NCBI GenBank assembly: GCA_002067705.1
Contig: MVRL01000197.1
Location: 1-34,331 of the forward strand
Length of the DNA: 34,331 nt
Reading direction: 5' to 3'
DNA from: Methanosaeta sp. PtaU1.Bin112
GTDB lineage: Archaea; Halobacteriota; Methanosarcinia; Methanotrichales; Methanotrichaceae
Shown: positions 12,717 to 34,331 of the stretch, one piece after another
Layout: each line of letters opens with the position of its first letter
Numbering within the stretch: the stretch's first letter is position 1
The notes under the pieces: model-generated
Seen by the model: only the letters and a program-made list of their open reading frames with translations
What the model was told of the DNA's origin: nothing
The model's database searches: none
Position numbers and translations under genes: made by a program

Positions 12717-13664
12717 ATGGATCTATTGGACCGCTTCCGTGGCTGCTTTCTGGGCCTGGCCGTGGGCGATGCCCTGGGAATGCCCACCGAGGGTTACACC
12801 GCCCAGGAGATCAGAGAGAAATTCGGCATAGTCAGCGAGATGGTTGCGGCCCCACATGGCCATTTTCACAGCGGTCTATTGGCCGGCCAGTTCACCGATG
12901 ACACAGAAGAGACGCTGCTGCTCGCCGAGTCGATCATCGAGTCGGCCGGTTTTTCGCCGGATGGATTTGCCGGCAAGCTCACCGCCTGGGGCACAGCCTG
13001 GACTCTGGACGAGCGGCTCAACCGGGGAGTGGGCTTTGTCACCCGGTCCGCCGTAGAGAGCATGATCGCAGGAACCCCCTGGCAGCAGTCAGGTCTTTCC
13101 ATTCCCACCTGCGGCGCTGCCATGAGGGCTGCGCCCATCGGCCTTCTCTACCATCCGGACATCAATGTCGTCAAGAGCTATGCCGATCTGCAGAGCCTGC
13201 CCACCCACGCCTCCGCCACCGCTCGGGCCGGTGCGGTAGCAGTAGCTGTTGGGGTGGCCCTCTCTGCCGCCGGCCTGCCCAAGGAGCTGGTCTTCAGGAA
13301 TGCCGCTTCTCAGGCCAGCCGCCTCGATGCTGAATTTGCCGAAAGGCTTCTTTGGGTCGGCTCGCTGCTCGACCTTCCGCCTGAAGACGCCCTGGGTCTG
13401 ATCCGAAACTCTCCTCTGGCAATGGAGACCGTGCCCGCTGCCTTCTACTGCTTCCTCAAGTTTGAGCCGAAAGAAGCTCTCATTGCCGCTGCCAGCAGCG
13501 GGGGAGACACAGACTCCATTGCCTCCATCGCAGGCTCGCTCTTCGGTGCAGCCCTCGGGCCATCCTGGATACCAGAGAGATGGCTGACAGCTCTGGAGGA
13601 TAAAGAGAGAATTGAGAATGCTGCCAGCGGGCTTTACCGGCTCTTTGCCTCCGTCTGCCGCTAG
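12717..13664 (+). CDS. ADP-ribosylglycohydrolase family protein (DraG/ARH-like)
   Basis: The 315-aa protein contains the metal-binding landmarks of this family: GDALG (17-21), TDDT (60-63) and GGDTDS (262-267), which together hold the two Mg or Mn ions. Family members remove ADP-ribose from arginine or other acceptors, or cleave related nucleosides, in the cytoplasm. No DraT-type ADP-ribosyltransferase or nitrogenase gene is in the window, so a nitrogenase-regulatory role is unsupported. The ATG at 12717 gives a family-length protein with the expected short N-terminal helix. argC begins 40 bases after its stop from its own promoter. Confidence 0.92.
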   Translation: MDLLDRFRGCFLGLAVGDALGMPTEGYTAQEIREKFGIVSEMVAAPHGHFHSGLLAGQFTDDTEETLLLAESIIESAGFSPDGFAGKLTAWGTAWTLDERLNRGVGFVTRSAVESMIAGTPWQQSGLSIPTCGAAMRAAPIGLLYHPDINVVKSYADLQSLPTHASATARAGAVAVAVGVALSAAGLPKELVFRNAASQASRLDAEFAERLLWVGSLLDLPPEDALGLIRNSPLAMETVPAAFYCFLKFEPKEALIAAASSGGDTDSIASIAGSLFGAALGPSWIPERWLTALEDKERIENAASGLYRLFASVCR

Positions 13665-13673
13665 GGCGTGGCC

Positions 13674-13682
13674 AATTTATAT
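13674..13682 (+). promoter_or_regulatory. TATA box for the arg cluster
   Basis: AATTTATAT lies about 27 bases before the argC ATG, and GTGAGGGA (13693-13700) is the ribosome-binding site. The spacing implies a very short leader; if transcription starts at the ATG, the ribosome-binding site would be lost, so the start is probably slightly upstream. Confidence 0.5.
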
Positions 13683-13704
13683 CATTAGCTTCGTGAGGGA
13701 TTTT

Positions 13705-14730
13705 ATGATAGATGTAGGAATTGTCGGTGGTTCGGGCTACACCGGTGGGGAGCTAATGCGTCTCCTTGCAAATCATCCCGAAGTTAAGGTAGTTGCAGTT
13801 ACCTCCCGGAAGCTGGCAGGAAAGAGCGTCACCGCCGTTCATTCTCACCTGAAGAGCATTTATTCTCTCAATTTTGAGGCGCTAAATGCCAAAGAGGTTG
13901 CAGAGCGCTGCGACTTTGTCTTTACCGCGGTCCCCCATGGTACCGCCATGGACTGGGTGCCCGAGCTTCTTGATGCCGGAACAAGAGTCATCGACCTGTC
14001 TTCAGATTACCGTCTGCCTACCGATGTCTTCGAGAAGACCTATGCCACAAAGCACCGCGCTCCCCGCGAGGCGGTCTTCGGAATGCCTGAGCTTCATCCT
14101 GAGGTGGCTCGGGCCAAGCTGGTAGGCAATCCCGGATGCTATCCCACCGGCGCCACTCTTGCCGTGGCTCCGCTGGCCAATGCCGGTCTGGTGGAGAGGG
14201 TGGTCTACGACTCCAAGTCAGGCATATCCGGCGCCGGAATGGAGCCCACTGAGACCTCCCACTATCCCAACATGTCCCAAAATGTCATCCCTTACAAGCT
14301 CACAGCGCACCGGCACGTTCCGGAGATCAAGCAGGAGCTATCCCGCCTCTCGCCGGGCATAAAGGTGAACTTCACCCCCCACGTCATTCCCTCTGTGAGG
14401 GGCATCCTCACCACCGCCCATGTCTTCGCCCGCGAGGGTTCTGAAGATACTCTGCAGGACAAGAGCCAGGTCTCTTCGATCTATCGCGAGTTTTATAAGA
14501 ACGCTCCCTTCGTTCGCATGGCTGATGCCGTTCCCAGGCTGTCATCAGTACGCGGCTCCAACTTCTGCGATATAAGCTTTGAGCCAGAGAAGGACAGCGA
14601 TCGACTGGTGGTCATATCCGCTATAGATAATCTTGTTAAGGGAGCTTCCGGCCAGGCCATCCAGAATATGAACCTCATGGCTGGCCTTGATGAGAAGACC
14701 GGGCTATGGTTCCCAGGAATGGCGCCCTGA
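13705..14730 (+). CDS. argC: N-acetyl-gamma-glutamyl-phosphate reductase
   Basis: ArgC performs the NADPH-dependent reduction of N-acetylglutamyl phosphate to the semialdehyde in arginine synthesis. The 341-aa protein has the NADPH loop GGSGYTGGEL (8-17), the catalytic Cys145 in GNPGCYPTG, and the conserved His region TAHRHVPEI. A longer open frame begins at 13612 inside the preceding gene, but ATG 13705 is preceded by GAGGGA and matches the family N-terminus exactly. It heads a cluster with a CBS protein, argJ and argH. Confidence 0.97.
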   Translation: MIDVGIVGGSGYTGGELMRLLANHPEVKVVAVTSRKLAGKSVTAVHSHLKSIYSLNFEALNAKEVAERCDFVFTAVPHGTAMDWVPELLDAGTRVIDLSSDYRLPTDVFEKTYATKHRAPREAVFGMPELHPEVARAKLVGNPGCYPTGATLAVAPLANAGLVERVVYDSKSGISGAGMEPTETSHYPNMSQNVIPYKLTAHRHVPEIKQELSRLSPGIKVNFTPHVIPSVRGILTTAHVFAREGSEDTLQDKSQVSSIYREFYKNAPFVRMADAVPRLSSVRGSNFCDISFEPEKDSDRLVVISAIDNLVKGASGQAIQNMNLMAGLDEKTGLWFPGMAP

Positions 14731-14792
14731 AATGATCTGCTGGATGCTGGTGCAGACAAAATACAGGTTTAGACAAGATCGAGGTAGGGATA

Positions 14793-15272
14793 ATGAAAGT
14801 CAAGGATGTTATGAATGTCAGGCCAGTCACCATTCAGGGGGAAGCTCCTGTGAGCGAGGCAGCTAGACTCCTGCGGGAAAATAAGATCAGCGGCATGCCG
14901 GTTCTGGATGGAGAGAAGCTGGTGGGCGTGGTATCGGAATCAGACCTTTTGCGCCTATTATCTGTGGATGATGAGGAGGGCGGTCTTTGGCTGCCCAGTC
15001 CCTTCGAGGTCTTCGAGATTCCCTTCCGAGATCTGGTTAAGTGGGAAAAGATGCACGCCAATCTGGAGGAGATTCCAAAGAAGAAGGTGGGCGATATCAT
15101 GAGCCAGAATCTGCATGAGGTGGAGCCGGATGACTCAGTGGAGGAAGCGGCAGGCATAATGACCCGCCATCGCATCAACAGGCTGCCTGTGGTGGATAAC
15201 GGTCGGCTGGTAGGCATAGTGACCCGGGGGGACATCATATCAGGCCTGGGGATGCAGCATGCAGAGGATTGA
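14793..15272 (+). CDS. Two-CBS-domain protein inside the arg cluster
   Basis: The 159-aa protein is two CBS domains (residues ~1-60 and ~97-155), each with the VxxVxxxxSVxEAAxxMxxxxIxxxPVVD type pattern (SGMPVLDGEKLVGVVSESDL; INRLPVVDNGRLVGIVTRGD), joined by a ~35-residue linker rich in aromatic residues. Paired CBS domains form a module that binds adenine nucleotides such as AMP, ATP or SAM. There is no attached enzyme, so it likely acts on another protein. It sits 62 bases after argC, and the argJ start lies within its last codons (14-base overlap), which ties its synthesis to ArgJ. A role in matching arginine synthesis to energy state is an inference from position. Confidence 0.9.
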   Translation: MKVKDVMNVRPVTIQGEAPVSEAARLLRENKISGMPVLDGEKLVGVVSESDLLRLLSVDDEEGGLWLPSPFEVFEIPFRDLVKWEKMHANLEEIPKKKVGDIMSQNLHEVEPDDSVEEAAGIMTRHRINRLPVVDNGRLVGIVTRGDIISGLGMQHAED

Positions 15273-16437
15273 AGGCGGCATCTGCGCCATTACCGGCGTT
15301 CGCGCCGCGGGAGTGCGCCAGGGAAAGTACGGCCTGGCGCTCATCGCCGCCTCCGGTGCGGCTGCAGGCATGTTCACCACCAACAGGGTGAGAGCTGCGC
15401 CGCTGGATGTAACGGCTGAACACCTGGCGGGGGGGCATCTGGACGGCATTATCGCGAACAGCGGCTGCGCCAATGCCTACACAGGCCAGCGCGGGCTTGA
15501 GGATGCCAGGGAAATGGCCCGACTCTTGGCCGGATTTCTGGAAACTGATGAGAAGAAGATTGGCGTGGCCTCGACAGGCGTCATCGGGCGGTACATGGAC
15601 CTGCCGCTCATCACCCAGCTATTCGAGCAGGCCAAAGGAAGGCTGCGCAGCAGCGGCGAGGCTAGCCAGGAAGCGGAGCGGGCCATCATGACCACAGACA
15701 CCAGGGTAAAGGAGATCGCTGTGGAGCATGAAGGGCTGCGCGTAGCAGGTATCGTCAAGGGGGCAGGAATGATCGAGCCGAATGTTGCAACTATGCTCTG
15801 CTTCCTCTACACGGACGCGGACTTTGCCGCGACAAAGCTGCATGAATGCCTTGCCGATGCAGTTCAAGACAGCTTCAATATGCTCACCGTAGACGGAGAC
15901 ACAAGCACCAATGACACTGTGCTCCTCACCGCTACTGGAAAAGTCCAGGCTAAGGAGGAGGATTTCCGCGCCGCCCTGAGGTACGTCTGCACAGAGCTGG
16001 CCCGCATGATGGCTCGGGATGGCGAGGGGGCCAGCAAGTACTTTGAAACGGTCGTCAGCGGGGCGCGGAGCGTCGGAGACGCCCGGTTGGCAGCCAAAGC
16101 AGTCTCTCGCAGCAGCCTTGTCAAGACGGCGGTCTATGGCGCCGACCCCAACTGGGGGCGCATCATCTGTGCGGTGGGATATTCCGGTGCGGAGATGGAC
16201 CCGACCAGGGTCACCCTGGGCCTGGAAGGAAAGAGGCCAGATGGCACAAGCCTGAAGGTCTCCCTGGTGGAAGAGGGCCGAATCGTGGATGGGGTTCTGG
16301 ATCAGGCCAAGGAGATCATGCGAGGGGATACTATCATCATCAATATCGACCTTGCCCTGGGCAGCGCTTCTGCGCGCGGCTTTGGCTGCGATTTGACCCA
16401 TGAGTATGTGAATGTAAACGCCAACTACACAACCTGA
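15259..16437 (+). CDS. argJ: Glutamate N-acetyltransferase / ornithine acetyltransferase
   Basis: ArgJ transfers the acetyl group from N-acetylornithine to glutamate, giving the cyclic acetyl route to arginine. The 392-aa proenzyme has the self-cleavage site: Ala177-Thr178 in KGAGMIEPNVATML, where Thr178 becomes the N-terminal nucleophile of the beta chain. The oxyanion-type STG motif (residues 105-107) is present. Whether the enzyme is mono- or bifunctional cannot be judged. It overlaps the CBS gene by 14 bases and lies 10 bases before argH. Confidence 0.96.
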   Translation: MQRIEGGICAITGVRAAGVRQGKYGLALIAASGAAAGMFTTNRVRAAPLDVTAEHLAGGHLDGIIANSGCANAYTGQRGLEDAREMARLLAGFLETDEKKIGVASTGVIGRYMDLPLITQLFEQAKGRLRSSGEASQEAERAIMTTDTRVKEIAVEHEGLRVAGIVKGAGMIEPNVATMLCFLYTDADFAATKLHECLADAVQDSFNMLTVDGDTSTNDTVLLTATGKVQAKEEDFRAALRYVCTELARMMARDGEGASKYFETVVSGARSVGDARLAAKAVSRSSLVKTAVYGADPNWGRIICAVGYSGAEMDPTRVTLGLEGKRPDGTSLKVSLVEEGRIVDGVLDQAKEIMRGDTIIINIDLALGSASARGFGCDLTHEYVNVNANYTT

Positions 16438-16447
16438 ATGAGCAAAC

Positions 16448-17887
16448 ATGTTTCGTGATCAACGTCTTGGGGAAAGCCGACAGGATGTCCAGGACTATCT
16501 CTCCAGCCGGGAGGCGGACGAGCGCATATTCGTTGCAGATTTGCTGGTGGACAGAGCCCACCTGGCGATGCTCAGAGAGCAGGGTCTGATCTCGGGAGAG
16601 GTATGCTGCCGAATTCTTGAGGCTCTTGATGACCTGATGAAAGAGGGCTCGCAGTCTCTGGGCGCAGGCGAGGATGTTCATGAGGCCATTGAGGCTTATG
16701 TCCTGGCTCGCGTGGGCCCGGAGGGCGGCAGGATGCACACCGGTCGCTCCAGAAATGACGAGGTTGCGACCTGCATCCGTCTCGCTCTGCGCACTCAGAT
16801 GCTGGACCTCTTGCAGGAGCTATTCAGCCTGCAGGCTACGCTGGTCCGGCTGGCGGAAGAGCATACCGGGACCGTGATTCCCGGGTTCACTCACACCCAG
16901 CATGCCCAGCCCACGACGCTAGCTCATCATCTCCTGGCCCATGCCGATGCCCTCGGCAGAGACCAGTCCCGTCTGGAGGATGCCTACCAGAGGGTAAATC
17001 TTAGCCCACTGGGCGCGGCGGCCTTTGCCTCTACCGGCTTTAAGATAGACCGGCAGAGGACGGCCCAGCTTTTAGGCTTTGACGGACTGGTGGAAAACAG
17101 CATGGATGCCGTGTCCAGCCGGGACTTCATCCTGGAGGTTCTCTCTTGCCTTTCCATCTTGATGGTCAATGCCAGCCGCCTGGCTGAGGAGCTGGTGCTC
17201 TGGTCCACCTCGGAATTCGCTTATCTTGAGCTGGATAACCTATATGCTTCTACCAGCTCCATCATGCCCCAGAAGAAGAATCCGGATACTGCTGAGCTGG
17301 CCCGCGGAAAAACGGGTTCCGTCCTGGGAAGCCTCATGGCTGCGCTTTCCATCTGCAAGGGACTGCCCATGAGCTACAACCGCGACCTGCAGGAGGTAAC
17401 GCCTCACCTCTGGCGCGGCCTGGACTGGGCGAGAAGCACGGTGCGCATCCTGGAGGGCTGCGTTTCATCGCTCCGGTTCAACCTGCCCCGGCTGGCTGCC
17501 AGCTCGGGCGCTGGCTTTTCCACTGCCACGGAGATTGCCGATTCGCTGGTGAGAATCACCGGCATGCCTTTCCGCACGGCGCACAGCATCGTGGGCCGCA
17601 TCGCCGCCTCAGGCACCAGGCCGAGCCTCGCCGAGCTGGACGGGATCGCCCTGGAGCTGGCAGGCTTCAGGGCCAGCGAGCGCGGCTTTTCAGAATCGGA
17701 CCTCGAAAGGGCGCTGGACCCGAAGAGCAATGTCGCCCTGCGGGCTAATACTGGAGGGCCTGCGCCATCTGAGACGAAACGGATGGTCAGGGACAGGCGG
17801 GAGCGGATAGCAAAGGGAGAGCAGAGGCTGGCCGAGAGGCGCAGCCGGGCGGAGAAGGCGCTGGGGGAGCTAGCTGCCGAGGAATAG
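16448..17887 (+). CDS. argH: Argininosuccinate lyase
   Basis: ArgH cleaves argininosuccinate to arginine and fumarate. The 479-aa protein has the superfamily motifs HTGRSRNDE (97-105), THTQHAQPTT (148-157) and the signature SSIMPQKKNPD (270-280) with the catalytic Ser. The residue before the signature Ser pair is Thr rather than the common Gly, which is tolerated in related archaeal enzymes. The C-terminal ~35 residues are an Arg/Glu-rich helical tail. Start ATG 16448; another ATG at 16438 opens only a six-codon frame. argG, the preceding step, is not in the window. Confidence 0.96.
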   Translation: MFRDQRLGESRQDVQDYLSSREADERIFVADLLVDRAHLAMLREQGLISGEVCCRILEALDDLMKEGSQSLGAGEDVHEAIEAYVLARVGPEGGRMHTGRSRNDEVATCIRLALRTQMLDLLQELFSLQATLVRLAEEHTGTVIPGFTHTQHAQPTTLAHHLLAHADALGRDQSRLEDAYQRVNLSPLGAAAFASTGFKIDRQRTAQLLGFDGLVENSMDAVSSRDFILEVLSCLSILMVNASRLAEELVLWSTSEFAYLELDNLYASTSSIMPQKKNPDTAELARGKTGSVLGSLMAALSICKGLPMSYNRDLQEVTPHLWRGLDWARSTVRILEGCVSSLRFNLPRLAASSGAGFSTATEIADSLVRITGMPFRTAHSIVGRIAASGTRPSLAELDGIALELAGFRASERGFSESDLERALDPKSNVALRANTGGPAPSETKRMVRDRRERIAKGEQRLAERRSRAEKALGELAAEE

Positions 17888-23061: not shown

Positions 23062-24492
23062 TTAACAAGAAGGCGCCTTCTCCTCCGCCTCCCATTTCCC
23101 GCCCTTCATCAGCCACCCATCCATATCCGCGGCTGCGATCTTGCCCTCGCCCATGGCGCTGATCACCGTGGCTCCGCCGCTGGTGATGTCTCCCCCCGCC
23201 CAGACGCCTTGCATGGTCGTGCGGCCCCGGCTGTCCACCACGAGAGTTCCCCATTTGGTGGTCTTCAGCTGCGGTGTGCTGCTGGCAATTAGTGGATTGG
23301 GCACCGTTCCCACGGCAATGACCACCGTATCCACATCGACGATATGCTCCGATCCCTTCTTCACCCGCGGGCTCCTGCGGCCTGAGGCATCGGGCTCGCC
23401 CAGCTCCATCTGCACGACCTCCATGGCTTTGACCATTCCCCGCTCATCTCCTAAAAATCGAGTTGGATTGGTTAAAAAGTCGAAGATAACATCCTCCTCC
23501 ATGGCATTTTCCACCTCCTCCAGACGGGCAGGCATCTCTTCACGGGAGCGGCGGTAGATGACGTGCACCTCATCCGCACCCAGGCGCATGGCAGAGCGGG
23601 CCGCATCCATGGCCACATTTCCGCCGCCTACCACTGCCACCTTCCTGCCCTTTTTGATGGGCGTATCGTACTCCGGGAACTTGTAGGCCTTCATCAGGTT
23701 GACTCTCGTCAGATACTCGTTAGCGGAATAAACGCCGCTCAGGTTCTCGCCGGGAACATTGAGAAAACGCGGCGCGCCCGCACCTATTCCCAGGAAGATG
23801 GCGTCGTAATCCCCTTTGAGCAGGCCCTCGACCTGCACCTGTCTGCCCACGACGCTGTCCAGCTCCAGATCGACACCCAATGACTTCACATAATCGATCT
23901 CCGCCCTGACGATGCTCTTGGGCAGGCGAAACTCGGGAATGCCGTAAACCAGGACGCCGCCGCCATCATGCAGCGCCTCGAAGATGGTAACCTTGTGTCC
24001 GAACTTTGCCATATCCGCGGCCACAGTCAGCCCAGCCGGACCACTGCCCACCACCGCCACCCGCTTTCCTGTGGCCTTTGCGACCTCGCACTCAGGCTTC
24101 TTCGACTGGGATAACTCCCAATCTGCCACATAGCGCTCCAGGCGGCCAATGGCAATCGGCGCGCCCTTCTTGGCCAGGATGCATTTGCTCTCGCACTGCA
24201 CCTCCTGAGGGCAGACCCGGCCGCATATTCCCGGGAGGCTGTTCTTTTTCTTGAGGGCTATCGTCGCCCCCTGCATGTCTCCTTCCCGCAGGGCGCAGAT
24301 AAAATCAGGTATCAGCACCCCCACCGGACAGCCTTCCATGCACTTGGGCTTCTTGCATTGAAGACATCTGCCTGCCTCATCTGCTGCCTGATCAGTACTG
24401 TAGCCCAGGGCAACCTCGGAAAAGTTGCTCTTCCTCTTTTCTGGAGATTGCTTGGGCATCTCCACCCGGTTCAAATTAATCTTGCTGGACAT
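23062..24492 (-). CDS. NADPH-dependent glutamate-synthase-small-subunit-like flavoprotein (GltD/NfnB family)
   Basis: The 476-aa protein has the standard order of the family: an N-terminal region with two Cys groups for [4Fe-4S] clusters (C43, C46, C51, C55 and C90, C94, C100, C104), the FAD loop VVGSGPAGL (147-155), and an NADPH Rossmann loop VAVVGGGNVAMDAARS near 285. A C-terminal GGDITSGGATV segment completes FAD binding. Such proteins pass electrons between NADPH and ferredoxin or a partner; a true glutamate synthase would need a large subunit, which is absent nearby. It is divergent from the FdhA-like gene with 143 bases between starts. Ending on a T-rich terminator. Its partner may be the FdhA-like protein, ferredoxin or another subunit elsewhere. 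Confidence 0.9.
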   Translation of the reverse strand: MSSKINLNRVEMPKQSPEKRKSNFSEVALGYSTDQAADEAGRCLQCKKPKCMEGCPVGVLIPDFICALREGDMQGATIALKKKNSLPGICGRVCPQEVQCESKCILAKKGAPIAIGRLERYVADWELSQSKKPECEVAKATGKRVAVVGSGPAGLTVAADMAKFGHKVTIFEALHDGGGVLVYGIPEFRLPKSIVRAEIDYVKSLGVDLELDSVVGRQVQVEGLLKGDYDAIFLGIGAGAPRFLNVPGENLSGVYSANEYLTRVNLMKAYKFPEYDTPIKKGRKVAVVGGGNVAMDAARSAMRLGADEVHVIYRRSREEMPARLEEVENAMEEDVIFDFLTNPTRFLGDERGMVKAMEVVQMELGEPDASGRRSPRVKKGSEHIVDVDTVVIAVGTVPNPLIASSTPQLKTTKWGTLVVDSRGRTTMQGVWAGGDITSGGATVISAMGEGKIAAADMDGWLMKGGKWEAEEKAPSC

Positions 24493-24635: not shown

Positions 24636-27389
24636 ATGTCAGCAATAAAACTCATGATAGATGATCAAATGGTAGAGGTTCCCAAGGGATCTACCATTTT
24701 GGATGCAGCCCGAAAGGCGGGATCTTATATACCAGCACTTTGCGACCACCCCGATCTGAAGCCCATCGGCTCCTGCAAACTATGCATCGTCTCGGTAAAG
24801 GGCATGGACTACTACCCTACTGCCTGCAACACCCTGGCGGAAGAGGGAATGGTTGTTCAGACCAGGACCGATGAGCTGCAAGAGATGAGACGAAACACCC
24901 TGGAGATGCTCCTGGCCCTCACCAATCATCCCACCAGCTGCCTCTTTTGCGACAGGAAGAACGAATGCACCGATCTGCGCGAATGCCTGCGCAAGTTTCC
25001 TGTCACTGTGGGCTGCAAGTACTGCCCAAAGAATGAGGAATGTGAGTTGCAGGAGGCGGTGCGGTTCGTCGGGCTGGAGAAGATCAGATACCAGATCTCT
25101 TTTAAGAATATGCCGGTTCTGAGGGAGCCATTCTTCGATCGCAATTACAGCCTCTGCATCATGTGCAGCCGATGCATCCGAATCTGTGAGGATGTGCGCG
25201 GCGTGGGCATTCTCTTCCATAATCCTGATTTTCATCGCATGAACTGGATAGGTCCGGAATCACTACAGGACGCAGACTGCAAATTCTGCGGGGCATGTGT
25301 GGATGCCTGTCCCACAGGAGCTCTCTTCGCCCGATCTGAGAAGTGGCAAAAACCGGAGTTCTCGGTCTCGACAATCTGCCCCTACTGCGGCGTGGGCTGC
25401 CGGCTTAAGCTCGGCGTCAGGGAAGAGAGGATAGTCTCCATCCATCCAGATAGAGATGGACCGGTAAATCGGGGGCAAGCATGCGTTAAAGGCCGTTTCG
25501 GCCTGGACGAGATCGTCCATCATCCCGACCGACTGACCACTCCGCTGATCAGACGCAACGGCAGGCTGGAGGAGGCCAGTTGGGAGGAAGCGCTCAATCT
25601 GATCGCCAAAAAGTTCTCTGAAATCAAAGAAAAATATGGGCCTGATTCGCTGGGAGCACTCTCCTCTTCCCGGTGTACCAATGAGGAGAACTTCCTGATG
25701 AGCAAACTGGCACGCGCCGTCTTCGGCACCAACAATGTGGACAACTGCGCCCGAGTCTGCCATGCGCCTTCGGTCACTGGGCTTGCCGCCTGCTTCGGCA
25801 GCGGGGCCGCCACCAATTCTTTCGACCAGATCGAAGACGCTGATCTCCTGTTCATCATCGGCTCCAACACTACTGAGGCTCATCCCATCGTCAGTCTGAA
25901 GATCATCAAGGCAGAGGCCAAGGGCGCGAAGATCATCGTCGCCGATCCCCGCAAGATCGAGCTGGTCGACCGGGCAGCCATCTGGCTCAACCTCAAGCCG
26001 GGAACCAACATCGCCCTGCTCAATGCAATGATGAATGTCATTATAAGTGAGGGCCTGGAAGATCGCGACTTCATCGCCAGCCGAACGGAAGGCTTCGAAG
26101 AATTCCGCAAGACCGTTATGGAGTATCCGCCGGAAAGAGCGAGCAAGATAACCGGAGTTCCAGCAGAAGATATCATAGCGGCAGCCAGGCTTTATGGTCA
26201 GGCCGGCAAGGCGATGATCATCTACAGCCTGGGAATCACGGAGCACATTACCGGAACTGCCAATGTCATGTCCCTGGGCAACCTTGCCATGCTCACCGGC
26301 AATGTCGGCCGCCGGTCGACCGGTGTAATGCCCCTGCGCGGGCAGAACAACGTGCAAGGAGCATGTGATATGGGGGCCCTTCCTAATGTTCATGTTGGCT
26401 ACCAGCCGGTAGCGGACGCGGCCATCCGCTCCAAATTCGAAGAGGCCTGGCATGTCAAATTGCCGGAGAATATTGGTCTGACCTCGACACAAATGCTGGA
26501 GGGCGACCAGGAATCAAAGATCAGAGCGCTTTATATCCTGGGAGAAGACCCTGCCCAGACCGACCCGGACACCAATCGGGTACGCGCTTCTCTCGAAGCT
26601 CTGGACTTCCTGGTTGTCCAGGAGATCTTTCCCACAGAGACCACCAAATACGCAGATGTCATTCTGCCTGCGGCCAGTTTTGCAGAATGCGACGGAACCT
26701 TTACCAATGGCGAGCGGCGCATTCAAAGGGTGAACAAAGCAATACCGCCAATCAGCGGCCTGGAGAACTGGCAGACGATCTGTCTCATCTCCCAGAAGAT
26801 GGGCTACCCAATGAAATACAATAATCCTTCGGAGATCATGGATGAGGTTGCCGCCCTCGCGCCGATGTTTGCAGGCGTGAGCTTCTCCCGGCTGGGAAGC
26901 AAAGGTCTGCAATGGCCCTGTCCATCGATCGGACATCCGGGGACAGAGACGCTGCATGCGGAGAAGTTCAGCCGGGGCCGGGGAAAGTTCAACGCCGTGG
27001 AGCATCGGTATCCTGCCGAGCAGCCCGATCCCGACTATCCTCTGATCCTCACCACCGGCAGGAGAAGAGAGCATTACAACTGCGGTTCCATGACCAGGCG
27101 CTCCAAGGGAATCATGTGGGTATGGCCGGAGGAAACAATAGAGATAAGCCCAACTGATGCAAAAGAGCTTGGAATTGGAGACGGCGAGGAGGTTTTGGTC
27201 AGGTCGAGGCGCGGCTCTTTGCGGACAAAAGCCAGGGTTACCGACAGGTCATCCCGCGGCGTGGCCTTCATGTCCTTCCACTACCAGGATGTTCTTACCA
27301 ACCTTCTCACCAACGCTGCTCTGGACCCTCAAGCCAAGACGCCGGAGTATAAGGCATGCGCCATACGGATAGAGAAGATCGCCTGCTGA
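24636..27389 (+). CDS. FdhA-like molybdo/tungsto-oxidoreductase with NuoG-like iron-sulfur head
   Basis: The 917-aa protein is a one-chain fusion. Residues 1-80 are a [2Fe-2S] ferredoxin domain (C36, C47, C50, C64). A His-Cys cluster follows (H98, C102, C105, C111), then an extra Cys group (C127, C130, C136). Two [4Fe-4S] ferredoxin motifs lie at C174-C184 and C215-C225. The catalytic part begins with a [4Fe-4S] ligand set (C248, C251, C255, C283), and the metal ligand is Cys375 in RVCHAPSV, the position of selenocysteine in some formate dehydrogenases, with the catalytic His376 next to it. The pterin-binding C-terminal domain is complete. This suits a formate dehydrogenase alpha subunit reducing NAD(P), ferredoxin or another carrier; no FdhB or F420 subunit is adjacent. 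Function as formate dehydrogenase is inferred. Start ATG 24636, with GGTTGGAA before it. Confidence 0.9.
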   Translation: MSAIKLMIDDQMVEVPKGSTILDAARKAGSYIPALCDHPDLKPIGSCKLCIVSVKGMDYYPTACNTLAEEGMVVQTRTDELQEMRRNTLEMLLALTNHPTSCLFCDRKNECTDLRECLRKFPVTVGCKYCPKNEECELQEAVRFVGLEKIRYQISFKNMPVLREPFFDRNYSLCIMCSRCIRICEDVRGVGILFHNPDFHRMNWIGPESLQDADCKFCGACVDACPTGALFARSEKWQKPEFSVSTICPYCGVGCRLKLGVREERIVSIHPDRDGPVNRGQACVKGRFGLDEIVHHPDRLTTPLIRRNGRLEEASWEEALNLIAKKFSEIKEKYGPDSLGALSSSRCTNEENFLMSKLARAVFGTNNVDNCARVCHAPSVTGLAACFGSGAATNSFDQIEDADLLFIIGSNTTEAHPIVSLKIIKAEAKGAKIIVADPRKIELVDRAAIWLNLKPGTNIALLNAMMNVIISEGLEDRDFIASRTEGFEEFRKTVMEYPPERASKITGVPAEDIIAAARLYGQAGKAMIIYSLGITEHITGTANVMSLGNLAMLTGNVGRRSTGVMPLRGQNNVQGACDMGALPNVHVGYQPVADAAIRSKFEEAWHVKLPENIGLTSTQMLEGDQESKIRALYILGEDPAQTDPDTNRVRASLEALDFLVVQEIFPTETTKYADVILPAASFAECDGTFTNGERRIQRVNKAIPPISGLENWQTICLISQKMGYPMKYNNPSEIMDEVAALAPMFAGVSFSRLGSKGLQWPCPSIGHPGTETLHAEKFSRGRGKFNAVEHRYPAEQPDPDYPLILTTGRRREHYNCGSMTRRSKGIMWVWPEETIEISPTDAKELGIGDGEEVLVRSRRGSLRTKARVTDRSSRGVAFMSFHYQDVLTNLLTNAALDPQAKTPEYKACAIRIEKIAC

Positions 27390-27482: not shown

Positions 27483-28847
27483 TTAATATCCCTTTTCTGT
27501 CCGGGTCATATTGTTATAGAACTTGAACTTATCTCTGTGCTTGTCCTGCATCAAGACGTAGCCGATTCTCCGGTCATCCAGATGCTCGGCGTACTCCTCC
27601 TGGGCGTCCTCCCGGCATGAGGAGCAGGCACCCCTGGGAATGGAGACGCAGAATGCGCTGTTCAGGATGCCATAGCCGCGCTGGGCTGATGTGGTGATGG
27701 TCATATATCCGGGACAGTCAGGGCAGAGACGGACCGACTCTTCCTGGTTTTCGTTGATCATATCAGTATCATAAAAGATCCGTCTCTTGCGGCGGTAGAA
27801 ATCTCCCAGACTGGCCAGAGCGTCTTCTACCAGTTCATCTCGCTCTTCCCAGATCTTCTGCACCTGGGAGACTGTGTGCTCGATCTCCCGCACCATTGCA
27901 GTAGACTGAACGAAACGGCCTGGCACATAGTCAGGCTCCCTGACATGAGAGTAATCGAGACCCGCCATAGCCTGGATGATGCCCGTGTTCACATAGGGCA
28001 GAGCCGTCTCCACGGCATATCCGCCCTCCAGGACACAGAGGTCCGGAGCGAGCTTTTCATTAAGCCGGGCATAGCCGTTGGCTGAGAAGCGCATATTGGC
28101 CAGCGGATCGGTGTAGTGATTGTCCTGGCCTGCCGAGTTGAGGATCAGATCTGGCTTGAAATCGTCGAGTATCGGCAGGATGAGATTGTCCAGGACGTAG
28201 TGGATACCCTCGTCTGTGGTGCCTGGGGGCAGAGGAACGTTAAGCGTTCTGGCCAGGGCCTGCGGCCCGCCCATCTCATTGACAAATCCAGAGCCAGGAT
28301 AAAGGGTGTGACCGTCCTGATGGAAGGAGAGGCAGAGCACATCCGGATCGTGCCAGAAAATCTCCTGGGTTCCGTCGCCGTGGTGCACATCGGTATCGAT
28401 GACGGCGATCCTCTTGTGGCCGTATTTGGTTCTCAAGTACTCGACCATGATGGCCATGTTGTTGATGTTGCAGAAGCCGCGGTTGCCGTGAACCACCCGC
28501 ATGCTGTGGTGGCCCGGCGGCCTGACCAGCGCAAAGCCGTTTCTGATCGCACCCTTCTCCAGGGCGTCGGCCAGAGTGAGGGTGCTGCCGGCGGCGATGA
28601 GGTGTGCTTCGGTTACCTGGCTCTCCACATCGGGAACGCAGAAATGGACCCGAGCAACATCCTTTTTATCAGCCAGGCGTGGTTTGAACTCCTCTATCTG
28701 GGGCAGGTCCATCAATCCTTCCTCAAAGATCTGGTCGCGAGTGTAGAGCAGCCTCTCCTCCCGCTCCGGATGGGTAGGCGAGATGGCCCAATCGAAGGCC
28801 GGGAAGAATATGAGGCCGGTCTTGCCGGTTTTGCCTTTGGAGGACAT
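27483..28847 (-). CDS. Histone-deacetylase-type zinc amidohydrolase with a C-terminal zinc ribbon
   Basis: The 454-aa protein has the HDAC/acetylpolyamine-amidohydrolase core: RPPGHHS (109-115, the catalytic His pair), NRGFCNINN (122-130), DTDVHHGDG (151-159) with zinc ligands D153 and H155, the third ligand D242 in SAGQDNHYTDPL, and LEGGYA with Tyr277. Residues ~310-454 form an added region: a coiled helix (KIWEERDELVEDALASLGDFY), then CPDC (375, 378), C400 and CSSC (408, 411), probably a structural zinc site. Family enzymes remove acetyl or longer acyl groups from Lys, polyamines or small molecules. The longer reading frame upstream overlaps the HyuA gene; ATG 28847, two bases after the HyuA stop, is the right start. 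Substrate unknown. Confidence 0.9.
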   Translation of the reverse strand: MSSKGKTGKTGLIFFPAFDWAISPTHPEREERLLYTRDQIFEEGLMDLPQIEEFKPRLADKKDVARVHFCVPDVESQVTEAHLIAAGSTLTLADALEKGAIRNGFALVRPPGHHSMRVVHGNRGFCNINNMAIMVEYLRTKYGHKRIAVIDTDVHHGDGTQEIFWHDPDVLCLSFHQDGHTLYPGSGFVNEMGGPQALARTLNVPLPPGTTDEGIHYVLDNLILPILDDFKPDLILNSAGQDNHYTDPLANMRFSANGYARLNEKLAPDLCVLEGGYAVETALPYVNTGIIQAMAGLDYSHVREPDYVPGRFVQSTAMVREIEHTVSQVQKIWEERDELVEDALASLGDFYRRKRRIFYDTDMINENQEESVRLCPDCPGYMTITTSAQRGYGILNSAFCVSIPRGACSSCREDAQEEYAEHLDDRRIGYVLMQDKHRDKFKFYNNMTRTEKGY

Positions 28848-28849
28848 CT

Positions 28850-30520
28850 TCAGCACCTCTCCCAGGATGGCAAAAGGCCCGCCGGAATTTCCATTCGCAC
28901 GTCCATCAGTCTTCCTACGGTTGACCAGCCTCGAATCATATTGAAAACCTCGCTGTAAGTGACCTCTGCCTCGGCAGCGTACTCGCTGATGCCCAGGCGC
29001 GCGGCCCTCTCGGCGAGCAGCCTCCGGGCCAGACGCTCCGCATCCTCGGCTGACATCTTCTGGTCTGTCACCTTTCCGGTCAGACCGTCTTCGGCCACGG
29101 AATACATTTTGTTCTCGGTGTCGATGTGCAGGTTCAGGGTTAAGGTGGGCCTGGCTACGGCAGCGCCGATGGCATTGGCCACGGGCGCATACTCGGGCAC
29201 CACTGCCCTGGCATTGAGCCGGTCGGCCACGAGCGGGACCAGAGTCGGAGCGCCTCCGCCTACACCAACCACATTCTGGGCGGAGAGAGACTCCCGGCTC
29301 ATGATCTCCCAGATGCGGTAGGCCGGCTCCTGCTCCCATTCCCGGAACATGCCGTTTATCTCCAGGACGATCTTGTCCACCACGGCATCAACCACCTTTG
29401 TGGCTGCCTCTTTGGCTGTGCAGCCCAGGCTGCCGGCCACGATGCGCATGGCCTTCTCGGCCAGAGACAGGTCGCCGATAGAAGTGAGCCCCAGGACTCG
29501 TAAGGCATCGGTGGGAGTGGGTCCATTTCCGCCCATGCAGAGCGGCGGGCCGTCCCGGTGCGGTCCGACGGAAAGGCTGCCGCCGGAGACTAACACCGCG
29601 CTGTCTCCGCCGATAGCTATCGACTTGACTGCAAAGGCCCGCACGTGGGTGAGCAGAGAGCCAACTTTGGCACCTTTGGCTGAGAGCAGGGGCTTGCCGG
29701 ATAGGATGAGAGCGAGGTCGGTGGTGGTGCCGCCGATATCCACGATGACGCTGCTCTGGCCTGGATCAGTCAGGGCCAGGACTCCCATGATGCTGGCCGC
29801 AGGCCCTGAGAAGATGGTCTCCACCGGCATCTGCACCGATTTGTCCAGGGGAAGAGTGCCGCCGTCCGCCTTGAGGATGTAGACCGGGGAATTGATCTTG
29901 CGCTCCTTGAGAGCTTTGGCCACGTCTCTGGCAAAGAGATCGTAGCTGTCAATGGTTGCTGCAGTGAGCATGGTGGTCGCTGCCCGGCGGGGGAAGTTGA
30001 GCTGGCCGGATACCCGGTGTCCAAGCTCGATCTTGCTGCCCGGAAGAGCTGCAGCCATCATCTCGCCGACCTTATTCTCATGAGAATGGTTTCTCTGGCA
30101 GAACTTTCCGACAACTGCCACGCGGGAGAGGCCCCTGGCCCGAATGCGAGAGGCTGCCTCTTTGATTTGGTCCTCCTTTAGCTTGTCGATCTCGTTGCCA
30201 CGAAAATCTATAGCTCCGTCAAGAATAATGCTCTCGCCCAGTTCATAGTCACGGGGATTTGTTCCGGGTCCAGGTATGAGCACCAACGCCACTGGATCGG
30301 TCTTGCCCTCAGCAATCATATTGGTGATCAGGGTAGTGCTCAGGACCACTCGCTCAATCTTGCGGGTATCAATGCCCCTCACCAGCTCGTCTAAGGCCGA
30401 AAGCAGGCACTTCAACAGGTTATCGTGATCTGTCGGCACATATGCGGTCTTGACCACCCGGCTGCCGTCCACAATAACAGCATCCGTGGTGGTGCCGCCC
30501 ACATCAATTCCTACTAGCAT
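28850..30520 (-). CDS. Hydantoinase/oxoprolinase A-type protein (HyuA, ASKHA fold)
   Basis: The 556-aa protein starts with the ATPase phosphate loop MLVGIDVGGTTTDAVIVD and repeats it near the middle (VIVDIGGTTTDLALIL), as in the two-domain HyuA fold. GGGAPTLVPLVADRL near the C-terminal third is a further adenosine-binding strand-loop. HyuA proteins open cyclic amides such as 5-oxoproline or hydantoins with ATP, usually with a HyuB partner; no hyuB is here, so the partner may be elsewhere or not needed. ATG 30520 has GGCGAG upstream; the longer frame to 30700 is noncoding leader. The deacetylase gene follows two bases after its stop, so both are one transcript. Confidence 0.85.
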   Translation of the reverse strand: MLVGIDVGGTTTDAVIVDGSRVVKTAYVPTDHDNLLKCLLSALDELVRGIDTRKIERVVLSTTLITNMIAEGKTDPVALVLIPGPGTNPRDYELGESIILDGAIDFRGNEIDKLKEDQIKEAASRIRARGLSRVAVVGKFCQRNHSHENKVGEMMAAALPGSKIELGHRVSGQLNFPRRAATTMLTAATIDSYDLFARDVAKALKERKINSPVYILKADGGTLPLDKSVQMPVETIFSGPAASIMGVLALTDPGQSSVIVDIGGTTTDLALILSGKPLLSAKGAKVGSLLTHVRAFAVKSIAIGGDSAVLVSGGSLSVGPHRDGPPLCMGGNGPTPTDALRVLGLTSIGDLSLAEKAMRIVAGSLGCTAKEAATKVVDAVVDKIVLEINGMFREWEQEPAYRIWEIMSRESLSAQNVVGVGGGAPTLVPLVADRLNARAVVPEYAPVANAIGAAVARPTLTLNLHIDTENKMYSVAEDGLTGKVTDQKMSAEDAERLARRLLAERAARLGISEYAAEAEVTYSEVFNMIRGWSTVGRLMDVRMEIPAGLLPSWERC

Positions 30521-31356: not shown

Positions 31357-34331
31357 ATGCACCGGGGGGCAAAGAAATTGCAGGCAGACGCACCAGAGGC
31401 GCAAGCATCAGTGACAGCCGCACCCGCAAAGATCATCGAGCTTGTAGAAAAATTCGAGCGGGATCAGGATATCTACCGGTCCAGCCAGTACAATGAGACT
31501 GAGCTGCGAACGGAGTTCATCAATCCCTTTTTTGAGGCGCTGGGGTGGGATGTCTACCACAAGCAGGAATGCCGGGCCGATAAGAGAGAGGTCAAAGAGG
31601 AGGATGCGGTCGATGTTGAAGGAAAGATCAAGAATCCGGACTACAGCTTTCGCCTCTTTGACAAGAGAAAATTCTTCGTTGAGGTTAAGAGGCCATCCAT
31701 AAATATCGAATCGGGAGTTTATCCGGCCTACCAGATAAGGCGCTATGCCTGGTCTGCCGACCTTGCCATCTCCATTCTCACCGATTTTGAGGAGTTCTCC
31801 GTCTACTACTGCCGGGCGCGGCCCTCCAAGGATGACAAATCCACCAAATCGCGCCTGCTCTATTTCCGGTACGACCAGTATGCTGAGAAGTGGCCGGAGA
31901 TTGCCGCCCTCTTTTCCAGGGAGGCGGTGCTCAATGGTTCGCTGGACAAATATGTTCAGTCTCTGCCGCAGAAGCGGGGCGACAAGAGGGTGGACGCTGC
32001 CCTTTTGGACGACATCTCCCTCTGGCGGGAGGATCTGGCAAAGAGCATTGCGAGGCACAATCCCGAGCTGGATACGACAGGCCTCAACTATGCCGTTCAG
32101 ACCATCATCGATCGGATCATATTCTTGCGCATCTGCGAGGACCGGGGCATTGAGAGATACATGCGTCTCAAGGACCTCTTGAACGGAGAGCGGGTTTATC
32201 CCAGGCTCTGCGAGCTTTTCTTGCAGGCGGATGAGCGCTACAACTCCGGGATCTTTCATTTCAGCAAGGAGCCGGGCAGGGAGAATCCAGACACCATCAC
32301 CCCAGGCCTTGCAATCGACGACGATACGCTGAAGAGCATCATCAAGCGCCTGTATTTTCCTGAGAGCCCTTACGAGTTCTCAGTCCTTCCTGCGGAGATC
32401 CTGGGCCAGATTTACGAGCAGTTTTTGGGCAAGGTCATCCGGCTGGATGAGGGCCACAATGCCCTGGTCGAGGACAAGCCGGAGGTAAAGAAGGCGGGCG
32501 GGGTCAAGTACACTCCGGCTTACATCGTCGAGTACATTGTGCAAAATACGACCGCTCCGCTTCTGGAAGGAAAGACGCTGCCGGAGGCCGCAGCCCTGCG
32601 GGTGCTCGACCCGGCTTGCGGTTCAGGCTCTTTTCTCATTGTGGCCTACCAGCATCTTCTGGACTGGCACAGAGAATGGTACATCAGAAATCTGGTGCCG
32701 TTGATCGAAAGCGGCAGGACTTCAGAGATAAAGAAGCTCCTCCCGGCGGCCTCGCCGACGAAGGGCCGGAAGGCCCGAAGCCCGGAGTCCCCCGTTTACC
32801 TGGGCAGGGGCGGGGAATGGAAGCTGACCACGGCGGAGCGAAAGCGCATTTTGCTGAATAGCATCTTCGGAGTGGACATAGACCGGCAGGCGGTGGAGGT
32901 GACCAAGCTCTCTCTGCTGCTGAAGGTGCTGGAGGGGGAGAACGAGGAGACGATCTCCAAGCAGCTCAAGCTCTTTGCAGAAAGGGCGCTGCCGGACCTG
33001 GGAAATAATATCAAATGCGGTAACTCTCTCGTAGGCTGGGACATCCTGGAGAGCAATCCGGGCCTGGGGCCGGAGGAGATTGCCAGGATCAATCCATTCG
33101 ACTGGGAGAGGGAGTTCCCCGAGGTCTTCCAGAGGGGCGGGTTTGATGTGGTGATAGGCAATCCGCCGTATGTAAGGCAGGAGAGCCTGAGCGAGTTCAA
33201 GGGCTATTTTCAGAAGCACTACCAGGTTTACCACGGGACGGCGGACCTCTACACCTACTTTATTGAGCGCGGCGTTGCTCTTCTCAGAGCTGGCGGCATC
33301 TTCTCCTACATCGTGGCCAACAAGTGGATGAGGGCCAACTATGGCACACCGCTGCGGCATTGGCTGAAAGAGCAGTGCATCGGGGAGATAATCGACTTTG
33401 GAGACCTTCAGGTCTTCCAGGGAGCCACTACCTATCCCTGCATAATTCGCATTGAAAAAAGCGCCCCCAGGGCGAGTTTCGAGGTGACGCAGGTAAAGAC
33501 ACTGGACTTCCTGGACCTGGGAGAGTACGTCAGAGAGGACCATTACAGCCTTAACCAGAGTGCGCTCGATGATAAAGGCTGGTCGCTGGCCGATGAAAGA
33601 ACTGCCGCTTTGCTGGCCAAGATCAGATCCCGTGGCGTGTCCCTGGGTGAGTACGTGGGCGGGAAGATCTACCGGGGAGTGCTCACAGGGCTCAATGAGG
33701 CTTTCGTCATCGATGAGGCCACAAGGGCGCGGCTGATTGCGCAAGATCCGAAGAGCAGAGAGCTGATCAAGCCATTCCTGGCGGGAAGGGATGTCAAGAG
33801 GTACGAACAGCCGAGGAGTGACAAGTATCTGATCTTGATGCCAAGAGGCTGGACCAGGGAAAAATCCAACAAGGCAAGTGATGCGCTGAGTTGGCTGACA
33901 GAGACGTATCCTGCAATAGCTAACCATCTGTTGCCCTTTGCCCAAGCAGCGGAGAAGCGATGTGATAAAGGAGAGTTCTGGTGGGAGCTACGGGCTTGCG
34001 ACTACTATGATGAGTTTGAAAAGCGCAAAATCATCTATGCGGAAATCGCCATGCGAGGGCAATTTGCGTTAGATCTTAATAATAGTTTTTCTGATACAAC
34101 TACATATATTCTTGGTAGCGATTCAAAATATCTTTTGGGAATATTGAATTCTAATTTATGGACATTTCTATTCTCAAGAGTCAGTTCGGGAATAAGAGGT
34201 GGCTTTTTCAGATGGAAGCATCAATATATGTCACCTCTCCCCATCCGCACCCTCGATTTCTCCGATCCCGCCGACGTCGCCCGCCACGATCGCATGGTAT
34301 CCCTGGTGGAGAGAATGCTCGCCCTGCACAA
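31357..34331 (+). CDS. Single-chain type IIG/Eco57I-like restriction-modification enzyme (partial)
   Basis: The gene starts at ATG 31357, preceded by GGAGAGAGAAGG, directly after an in-frame stop, and is open to the right edge (991 codons). Residues ~40-115 are an endonuclease domain with NPDYSFRLF (D95) and FVEVKRP (E109, K111), the D-ExK catalytic pattern. A helical linker leads to the methyltransferase: motif I DPACGSGSF (D418) and the adenine motif NPPY (602-605), so it makes N6-methyladenine. A target-recognition region follows, and near the edge SSGIRGGFFRWK is typical of the TaqI-like C-terminal specificity domain. Such enzymes cut and protect DNA in one polypeptide. The reading runs off the window, so the last residues of the recognition domain are missing. 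Insertions near 445-475 (SGRTSEIKKLLPAASPTKGRK) make a charged loop. Related PglX-type BREX methylases lack the nuclease head. Confidence 0.9.
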   Translation, partial: MHRGAKKLQADAPEAQASVTAAPAKIIELVEKFERDQDIYRSSQYNETELRTEFINPFFEALGWDVYHKQECRADKREVKEEDAVDVEGKIKNPDYSFRLFDKRKFFVEVKRPSINIESGVYPAYQIRRYAWSADLAISILTDFEEFSVYYCRARPSKDDKSTKSRLLYFRYDQYAEKWPEIAALFSREAVLNGSLDKYVQSLPQKRGDKRVDAALLDDISLWREDLAKSIARHNPELDTTGLNYAVQTIIDRIIFLRICEDRGIERYMRLKDLLNGERVYPRLCELFLQADERYNSGIFHFSKEPGRENPDTITPGLAIDDDTLKSIIKRLYFPESPYEFSVLPAEILGQIYEQFLGKVIRLDEGHNALVEDKPEVKKAGGVKYTPAYIVEYIVQNTTAPLLEGKTLPEAAALRVLDPACGSGSFLIVAYQHLLDWHREWYIRNLVPLIESGRTSEIKKLLPAASPTKGRKARSPESPVYLGRGGEWKLTTAERKRILLNSIFGVDIDRQAVEVTKLSLLLKVLEGENEETISKQLKLFAERALPDLGNNIKCGNSLVGWDILESNPGLGPEEIARINPFDWEREFPEVFQRGGFDVVIGNPPYVRQESLSEFKGYFQKHYQVYHGTADLYTYFIERGVALLRAGGIFSYIVANKWMRANYGTPLRHWLKEQCIGEIIDFGDLQVFQGATTYPCIIRIEKSAPRASFEVTQVKTLDFLDLGEYVREDHYSLNQSALDDKGWSLADERTAALLAKIRSRGVSLGEYVGGKIYRGVLTGLNEAFVIDEATRARLIAQDPKSRELIKPFLAGRDVKRYEQPRSDKYLILMPRGWTREKSNKASDALSWLTETYPAIANHLLPFAQAAEKRCDKGEFWWELRACDYYDEFEKRKIIYAEIAMRGQFALDLNNSFSDTTTYILGSDSKYLLGILNSNLWTFLFSRVSSGIRGGFFRWKHQYMSPLPIRTLDFSDPADVARHDRMVSLVERMLALH

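Follow-up and report, generated by a model that had tools for sequence, protein, structure and literature searches.

A conserved HyuA-HDAC gene pair in Methanotrichaceae and its possible role as a two-subunit amidohydrolase

Introduction

Caprolactamase (CapAB), 5-oxoprolinase and N-methylhydantoinase (HyuAB) have in common an ATPase subunit of the HyuA type that carries phosphate-1 and phosphate-2 motifs, and are encoded in the order A subunit, then metal hydrolase. The accessible part of the caprolactamase study assigns the ATP site and the phosphorylation or activation of the substrate to CapA and the hydrolysis to CapB, whose Zn is needed for activity; mutants of CapA or CapB have lost most or all activity, and the activated substrate is thought to reach the metal through a tunnel (PMC8453981). 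The order hydA-hydB has likewise been published for hyd operons, according to the available part of that source (PMC5214803). Here we describe a pair of adjacent genes in which a HyuA-like gene keeps this order and a gene of the HDAC family of zinc amidohydrolases takes the hydB slot. The pair lies in a stretch of 34,331 nucleotides from Methanosaeta sp. PtaU1.Bin112 (contig MVRL01000197.1), referred to as the window at its full length, and consists of:

28850..30520, minus strand: HyuA-like gene (hydantoinase/oxoprolinase alpha-type, ASKHA fold), first of the two, encoding 556 aa
27483..28847, minus strand: gene for a zinc amidohydrolase of the HDAC family, second of the two, encoding 454 aa

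The HyuA reading frame ends with a TGA stop at 28852-28850 and the HDAC frame begins with ATG at 28847, leaving a spacer of 2 bases (28849-28848); the HDAC stop ends at 27483. A purine-rich gggagagg inside the final codons of HyuA could serve as the ribosome-binding site of the HDAC gene. A previous reading of the DNA letters alone (the sequence-only reading) had put two bases between a hydantoinase-type and an HDAC-type gene; the coordinates of the open reading frames agree with this spacing, and both family calls have been upheld by Pfam matches above cut-off. It had also noted that the usual partner HyuB is not nearby, which has been borne out and extended: a profile search of the whole source genome (3.4 Mb, 99% complete) has returned no HyuB (PF02538), near the pair or elsewhere. 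The families of both parts are known, and their combination is apparently undescribed, as no description of a HyuA-HDAC pair has been found in a search of open-access papers.

Conservation of the pair

The HyuA-HDAC pair is a real conserved unit. A collection scan has yielded at least 583 relatives, and among the best 80 of these, whose neighbours were examined, HyuA lies directly upstream of the HDAC in 79; in the exception the contig has no more than 118 bases ahead of the HDAC frame. The same arrangement has been found at all 36 further bacterial loci, by protein comparison in 35 and by translated search in one (L113), although six of the 36 repeat earlier loci with identical HDACs. In most loci the two genes apparently overlap or lie within a few bases of each other. 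Among the matches listed, the closest HDAC is that of Methanothrix sp. STC_42 with 96% identity, which marks the host as a Methanothrix-like methanogen. The sequence-only reading had named a lack of conservation of the pair as part of what would refute it; the gene-neighbour survey has found it to be conserved, and for this reason a chance origin of the observation is excluded.

The two proteins have also been inherited together. For 97 full-length pairs, the distance matrices of HyuA and HDAC are strongly correlated (Mantel r 0.94, with 0 of 999 permutations as high), and the correlation within bacteria is 0.90. A candidate natural fusion of HyuA and HDAC, an 819 aa frame in genome G368, has been rejected, since HyuA is a separate upstream gene there and the length reflects an extension of the frame. 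Carriage on plasmids has likewise been rejected, as none of 72,556 plasmid records gives a match at E 1e-60.

The HyuA protein

The HyuA protein matches PF05378 (Hydant_A_N; E 1.6e-30, 106.6 bits, cut-off 25.2) and PF01968 (Hydantoinase_A; E 1.7e-40, 139.6 bits, cut-off 22.9). Both phosphate motifs, defined as DxGGTxTD (phosphate-1) and DxGGT (phosphate-2) in the available part of PMC8453981, are present and have been followed through an alignment of 48 HyuA sequences:

30482..30505, minus strand: phosphate-1 motif DVGGTTTD, residues 6-13; T10 and T12 invariant in 48/48, D6, G8, G9 and D13 at least 90% conserved
29717..29740, minus strand: phosphate-2 motif DIGGTTTD, residues 261-268; D261, G263, G264, T265, T266 and D268 invariant in 48/48

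The AlphaFold model of HyuA (predicted local distance difference test, pLDDT, 89.6) resembles catalytic HyuA-type chains over residues 1-556, with the best matches to the Apc alpha-type chain 5l9w_b (Z 29.2, 495 aligned) and to residues 6-617 of CapA 6yra (Z 27.4, 516 aligned). Whole-length matches have also been observed to acetone carboxylase beta chains and N-methylhydantoinase (Z 20.6), and other ASKHA proteins reach Z 18.2 or less. The HyuA-type kinase subunit fold is thus held in common with acetone and acetophenone carboxylases (Acx, Apc; 5svc_B matches with Z 27.1), but no beta or gamma carboxylase subunit adjoins the HyuA of the window. Compared with CapAB and HyuAB, the partner is an HDAC instead of HyuB, the HyuA is about 20-23% identical in structural alignments, and both the adenosine motif GxxPGP and the final 75-80 residues are absent from it. 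As GxxPGP is replaced by an RxGPxxC-type sequence (consensus RxGPAxCxGG), the protein forms a distinct branch of HyuA. At residue 306 (window ~29603-29605, minus strand) an invariant GGD(S) is found where N-methylhydantoinase and ApcA have GGGS; this may be a signature of the branch.

The HDAC protein and its four-cysteine tail

The second protein matches PF00850 with E 5.8e-69 (233.1 bits, Pfam cut-off 27.9), and NCBIfam holds no model that HyuA or HDAC matches at its curated cut-off. According to the available part of the source, the classical HDAC motif set comprises a double His, GFC, Asp-His-Asp and (E/S/G)GGY (PMC11532494), and every member of this set is present. In an alignment of 39 HDACs with 60-88% identity to that of the window, G124-F125-C126 is invariant in 39/39, as are the following residues:

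28506..28511, minus strand: double histidine H113-H114, invariant 39/39
28383..28391, minus strand: zinc ligands D153 and H155, invariant 39/39
28122..28124, minus strand: third zinc ligand D242, invariant 39/39
28017..28028, minus strand: EGGY motif, residues 274-277, with catalytic Y277, invariant 39/39

Residues 5-338 of the AlphaFold model (pLDDT 85.3) resemble bacterial lysine deacetylases, e.g., Kdac1 8szu_A with Z 35.8, 321 aligned residues and a root-mean-square deviation of 2.5. By the titles of their PDB entries, HDAC-fold enzymes also include hydrolases of small-molecule amides, namely propanil hydrolase and dimethoate hydrolase. The bacterial HDAC-like amidohydrolases (HdaH, Kdac1, class II-like) share the catalytic domain and all of its residues with the protein of the window, but their identity to it is about 30% or less, and it differs from them by an added 110-residue C-terminal domain with four Cys and by its constant HyuA neighbour. 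The acetoin utilisation deacetylase AcuC, which regulates AcsA, is a further member of the family; however, no conserved acu neighbours have been seen beside the pair, and the association with AcsA is weak. Four more HDAC-family genes occur in the source genome (contigs C199, C187, C104 and C90), and two of them, on C199 and C187, match the HDAC of the window in the comparison, with an identity of no more than about 30%.

The added domain carries two Cys pairs:

27486..27815, minus strand: domain added at the C-terminus (residues 345-454), rich in beta structure and with a single helix, outside all listed structural matches
27615..27725, minus strand: putative four-Cys zinc site C375, C378, C408, C411, with a treble-clef-like order of elements

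These four residues are invariant in the 39 aligned HDACs, and all four occur in 117/117 collected HDACs (110 with CxxC..CxxC, 7 with the first pair widened by one or two residues), so that the C-terminal Cys site put forward as an added module in the sequence-only reading has proved a constant part of the protein. Its description as a zinc ribbon appears imprecise. Both Cys pairs are real, and the tail is modelled mostly with confidence (pLDDT 84-97 per ten-residue block), but in the model the second CxxC opens a helix (residues 409-421) after a knuckle and a beta hairpin. A knuckle, a hairpin and a second Cys pair at the start of a helix, in this order, define a treble clef, and the fold is predicted from the model to be treble-clef-like rather than a ribbon. 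A comparison of PDB sequences with a profile of the tail has given one chance match only (E 0.13); the whole-model structure searches reach only to residue ~338, and the fold of the tail is therefore barely probed by them.

Distribution and descent

Presence of the HDAC has been called from matches at E 1e-100. Within Halobacteriota it is found in 20/294 genomes, i.e., in 11 Methanotrichaceae, which comprise all those sampled with none listed without it, and in 9 genomes of two Methanosarcinaceae genera with large genomes, whereas the other Methanosarcinaceae of the same sample have it in 0/31. These hosts look like the acetoclastic lineages. Among the matches listed, the pair is present in many Methanosarcina. 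The Bacillota-type phylum to which Desulfotruncus belongs carries the HDAC in 118/299 genomes.

A quick tree unites the archaeal HDACs, together with the Gaiellales copy, in a single clade within the bacterial ones (SH-aLRT 99), and the Methanosarcina HDACs are nested beside the group of M. harundinacea (93). This topology, obtained from a short tree search with long branches, suggests one transfer from Bacillota to archaea with later exchange. The Gaiellales copy is a HyuA-HDAC pair in a bacterial metagenome-assembled genome (G297, locus L034), and the tree places its HDAC among those of Methanothrix; it reflects either a transfer or a binning error or contamination, and this genome is the only one of 119 in its phylum with the HDAC.

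The distribution also offers weak clues to the physiology of the pair. Among the Bacillota-type genomes, CODH/ACS (PF03598) is present in 56/118 with the HDAC and 34/181 others, which gives an odds ratio of 3.9 (p 1.9e-7) that ignores kinship. Acetyl-CoA synthetase is found in 43/118 genomes with and 47/181 without the HDAC (p 0.07), or in 40/118 and 36/181 when matches over the curated cut-off are counted (p 0.01); as this co-occurrence is weak, acetyl-CoA synthetase has been rejected as a dedicated target in the manner of AcuC.

A proposed amidohydrolase in two subunits

As the hydB slot holds a zinc HDAC, the genome has no HyuB, and labour is divided between two subunits in CapAB, we propose the HDAC as the hydrolytic half of the pair. 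By this analogy, our leading though still tentative interpretation is that the two proteins are subunits of one ATP-dependent amide hydrolase of the lactam or imide type. HyuA with ATP would phosphorylate or otherwise activate the substrate carbonyl, as proposed for CapA and Apc-alpha, and the zinc HDAC in the place of canonical HyuB would attack the activated carbonyl by means of zinc-bound water. The treble-clef-like tail may act as a docking element to which either HyuA or a macromolecular substrate binds. We infer a physical complex, the use of ATP, hydrolysis of an activated carbonyl and a role for the tail. With somewhat greater reserve, one may postulate a class of two-subunit enzymes in which HyuB has given way to an HDAC as the zinc partner that receives the activated carbonyl from the hydantoinase-type kinase, and which has spread in anaerobic Bacillota and has then been passed to acetoclastic methanogens.

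Several observations weigh against a two-subunit hydrolase. The motif GxxPGP has been lost by a deletion of 3-5 residues, as seen in alignment with N-methylhydantoinase and ApcA, and ATP binding is consequently not secured; judged from the sequence motifs, it is likely, not certain. About the last 75-80 residues of a canonical HyuA are missing, as the model ends at CapA 617 of 691. HDACs hydrolyse amides without ATP, and the one in the window, whose own active site is complete, may for these reasons need no partner. The two genes appear to be mostly 58-260 bases apart in some Methanosarcina copies and some others (542 in L031), largely because the HDAC frames there carry N-terminal extensions, which have been trimmed for the analysis. 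In another Methanosarcina copy (L043, 6062-9341) HyuA is spread over three frames, which makes its gap figure meaningless, and the HDAC frame is shortened, owing to decay or sequencing errors. Finally, co-inheritance fits two enzymes of one pathway equally well.

An unlikely, yet best surviving alternative is that the HDAC is a deacylase of acyl-lysines in proteins and HyuA its ATP-dependent regulator or activator, comparable to ASKHA activators. It is favoured by the structural proximity of the catalytic domain to Kdac1 and its bacterial relatives. To the same degree improbable is its physiological extension, in which the pair strips off acyl marks that stem from reactive acyl metabolites in anaerobes whose acetyl flux is high. 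The restriction within Halobacteriota to presumably acetoclastic lineages (11 Methanotrichaceae, 9 Methanosarcinaceae, 0/31 others) and the excess of CODH/ACS fit this picture, and Syntrophomonas wolfei is described as rich in acyl-lysines in the available part of its acylome study (PMC9676460). However, the CODH/ACS statistic does not account for kinship, the association with acetyl-CoA synthetase is weak, and HyuA lies closer to the catalytic HyuA chains (Z 27-29) than to activators (Z 16). To our knowledge, moreover, no ATP-dependent regulator of such an HDAC has been described.

Still less probable are two separate enzymes acting in sequence, in which HyuA would open a cyclic amide with ATP and the HDAC would deacylate the product, i.e., the two-step route considered conceivable in the sequence-only reading. 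Tight linkage and co-inheritance fit one pathway, but nothing points to successive reactions, and the route has found no support. Ring opening by the HyuA proteins known so far requires a metal-bearing partner (PMC8453981, PMC5214803), and the genome has no HyuB. In archaea, the pair has no other neighbour, and thus no further gene of such a pathway, that is shared by both families. Since the HDAC occupies the hydB slot, one reaction over two subunits is the more economical explanation.

In bacteria, the pair is often found inside a locus which, with gene names assigned by reading the proteins, has the order miaB-ylbF-mutS-HyuA-HDAC-mutL-methyltransferase-miaA-hfq. Across loci L060-L086, mutL is present in 23/27 and mutS in 18/27, with some contigs ending early, whereas in the divergent bacterial regions L113-L132 the pair sits at the mutS-mutL locus with both genes in 9/20 and elsewhere in 11/20. 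The constant feature is the pair, not the locus. A role on nucleic acid, with removal or remodelling of modified or damaged bases, a link to mismatch repair or tRNA A37 modification and a Cys tail that binds nucleic acid, would suit this bacterial context and is nevertheless quite improbable, as the pair lies elsewhere in those 11 regions and in all archaeal loci, and the miaB-to-hfq locus is an ordinary Bacillota gene order open to inserted genes. MutL occurs in 198/294 Halobacteriota genomes, all 20 HDAC hosts included, and therefore discriminates nothing there; the link to mismatch repair has been rejected, as neither the archaeal distribution nor the 11/20 bacterial copies bear it out.

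Neighbouring genes in the window

Upstream of the pair, a long frame on the plus strand (31357-34329) runs off the end of the window and shows DPACGSGSF and NPPY motifs, by eye a restriction-methyltransferase fusion; beside it lies a Fic/Doc protein gene (PF02661; 30605-31036, plus strand). The two are possibly a defence island. On the other side, 24636-27386 (plus strand) encodes a formate-dehydrogenase-like molybdopterin oxidoreductase that contains iron-sulfur domains of the Fer2 and NADH-G types and diverges from a GltD-like flavoprotein gene (23065-24492, minus strand); it occurs here in a presumed acetate user. Further away, 12717-17884 (plus strand) carries in a row an ADP-ribosylglycohydrolase, a semialdehyde dehydrogenase (ArgC-like), ArgJ and an argininosuccinate lyase-like gene.

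Implications

Among syntrophic and acetate-linked anaerobes the pair is common, and it supplies a candidate zinc deacylase in syntrophs, for which the available part of the acylome study names a sirtuin only (PMC9676460). Enzymes of the HDAC fold are known to deacylate without ATP; if the two-subunit hydrolase proves true, one that depends on prior ATP-driven activation by its partner would widen both families, and the substrate would be one that is thermodynamically hard to hydrolyse, like caprolactam. Genetic tools exist for Methanosarcina, and the occurrence of the pair in many of its members makes this interpretation directly testable.

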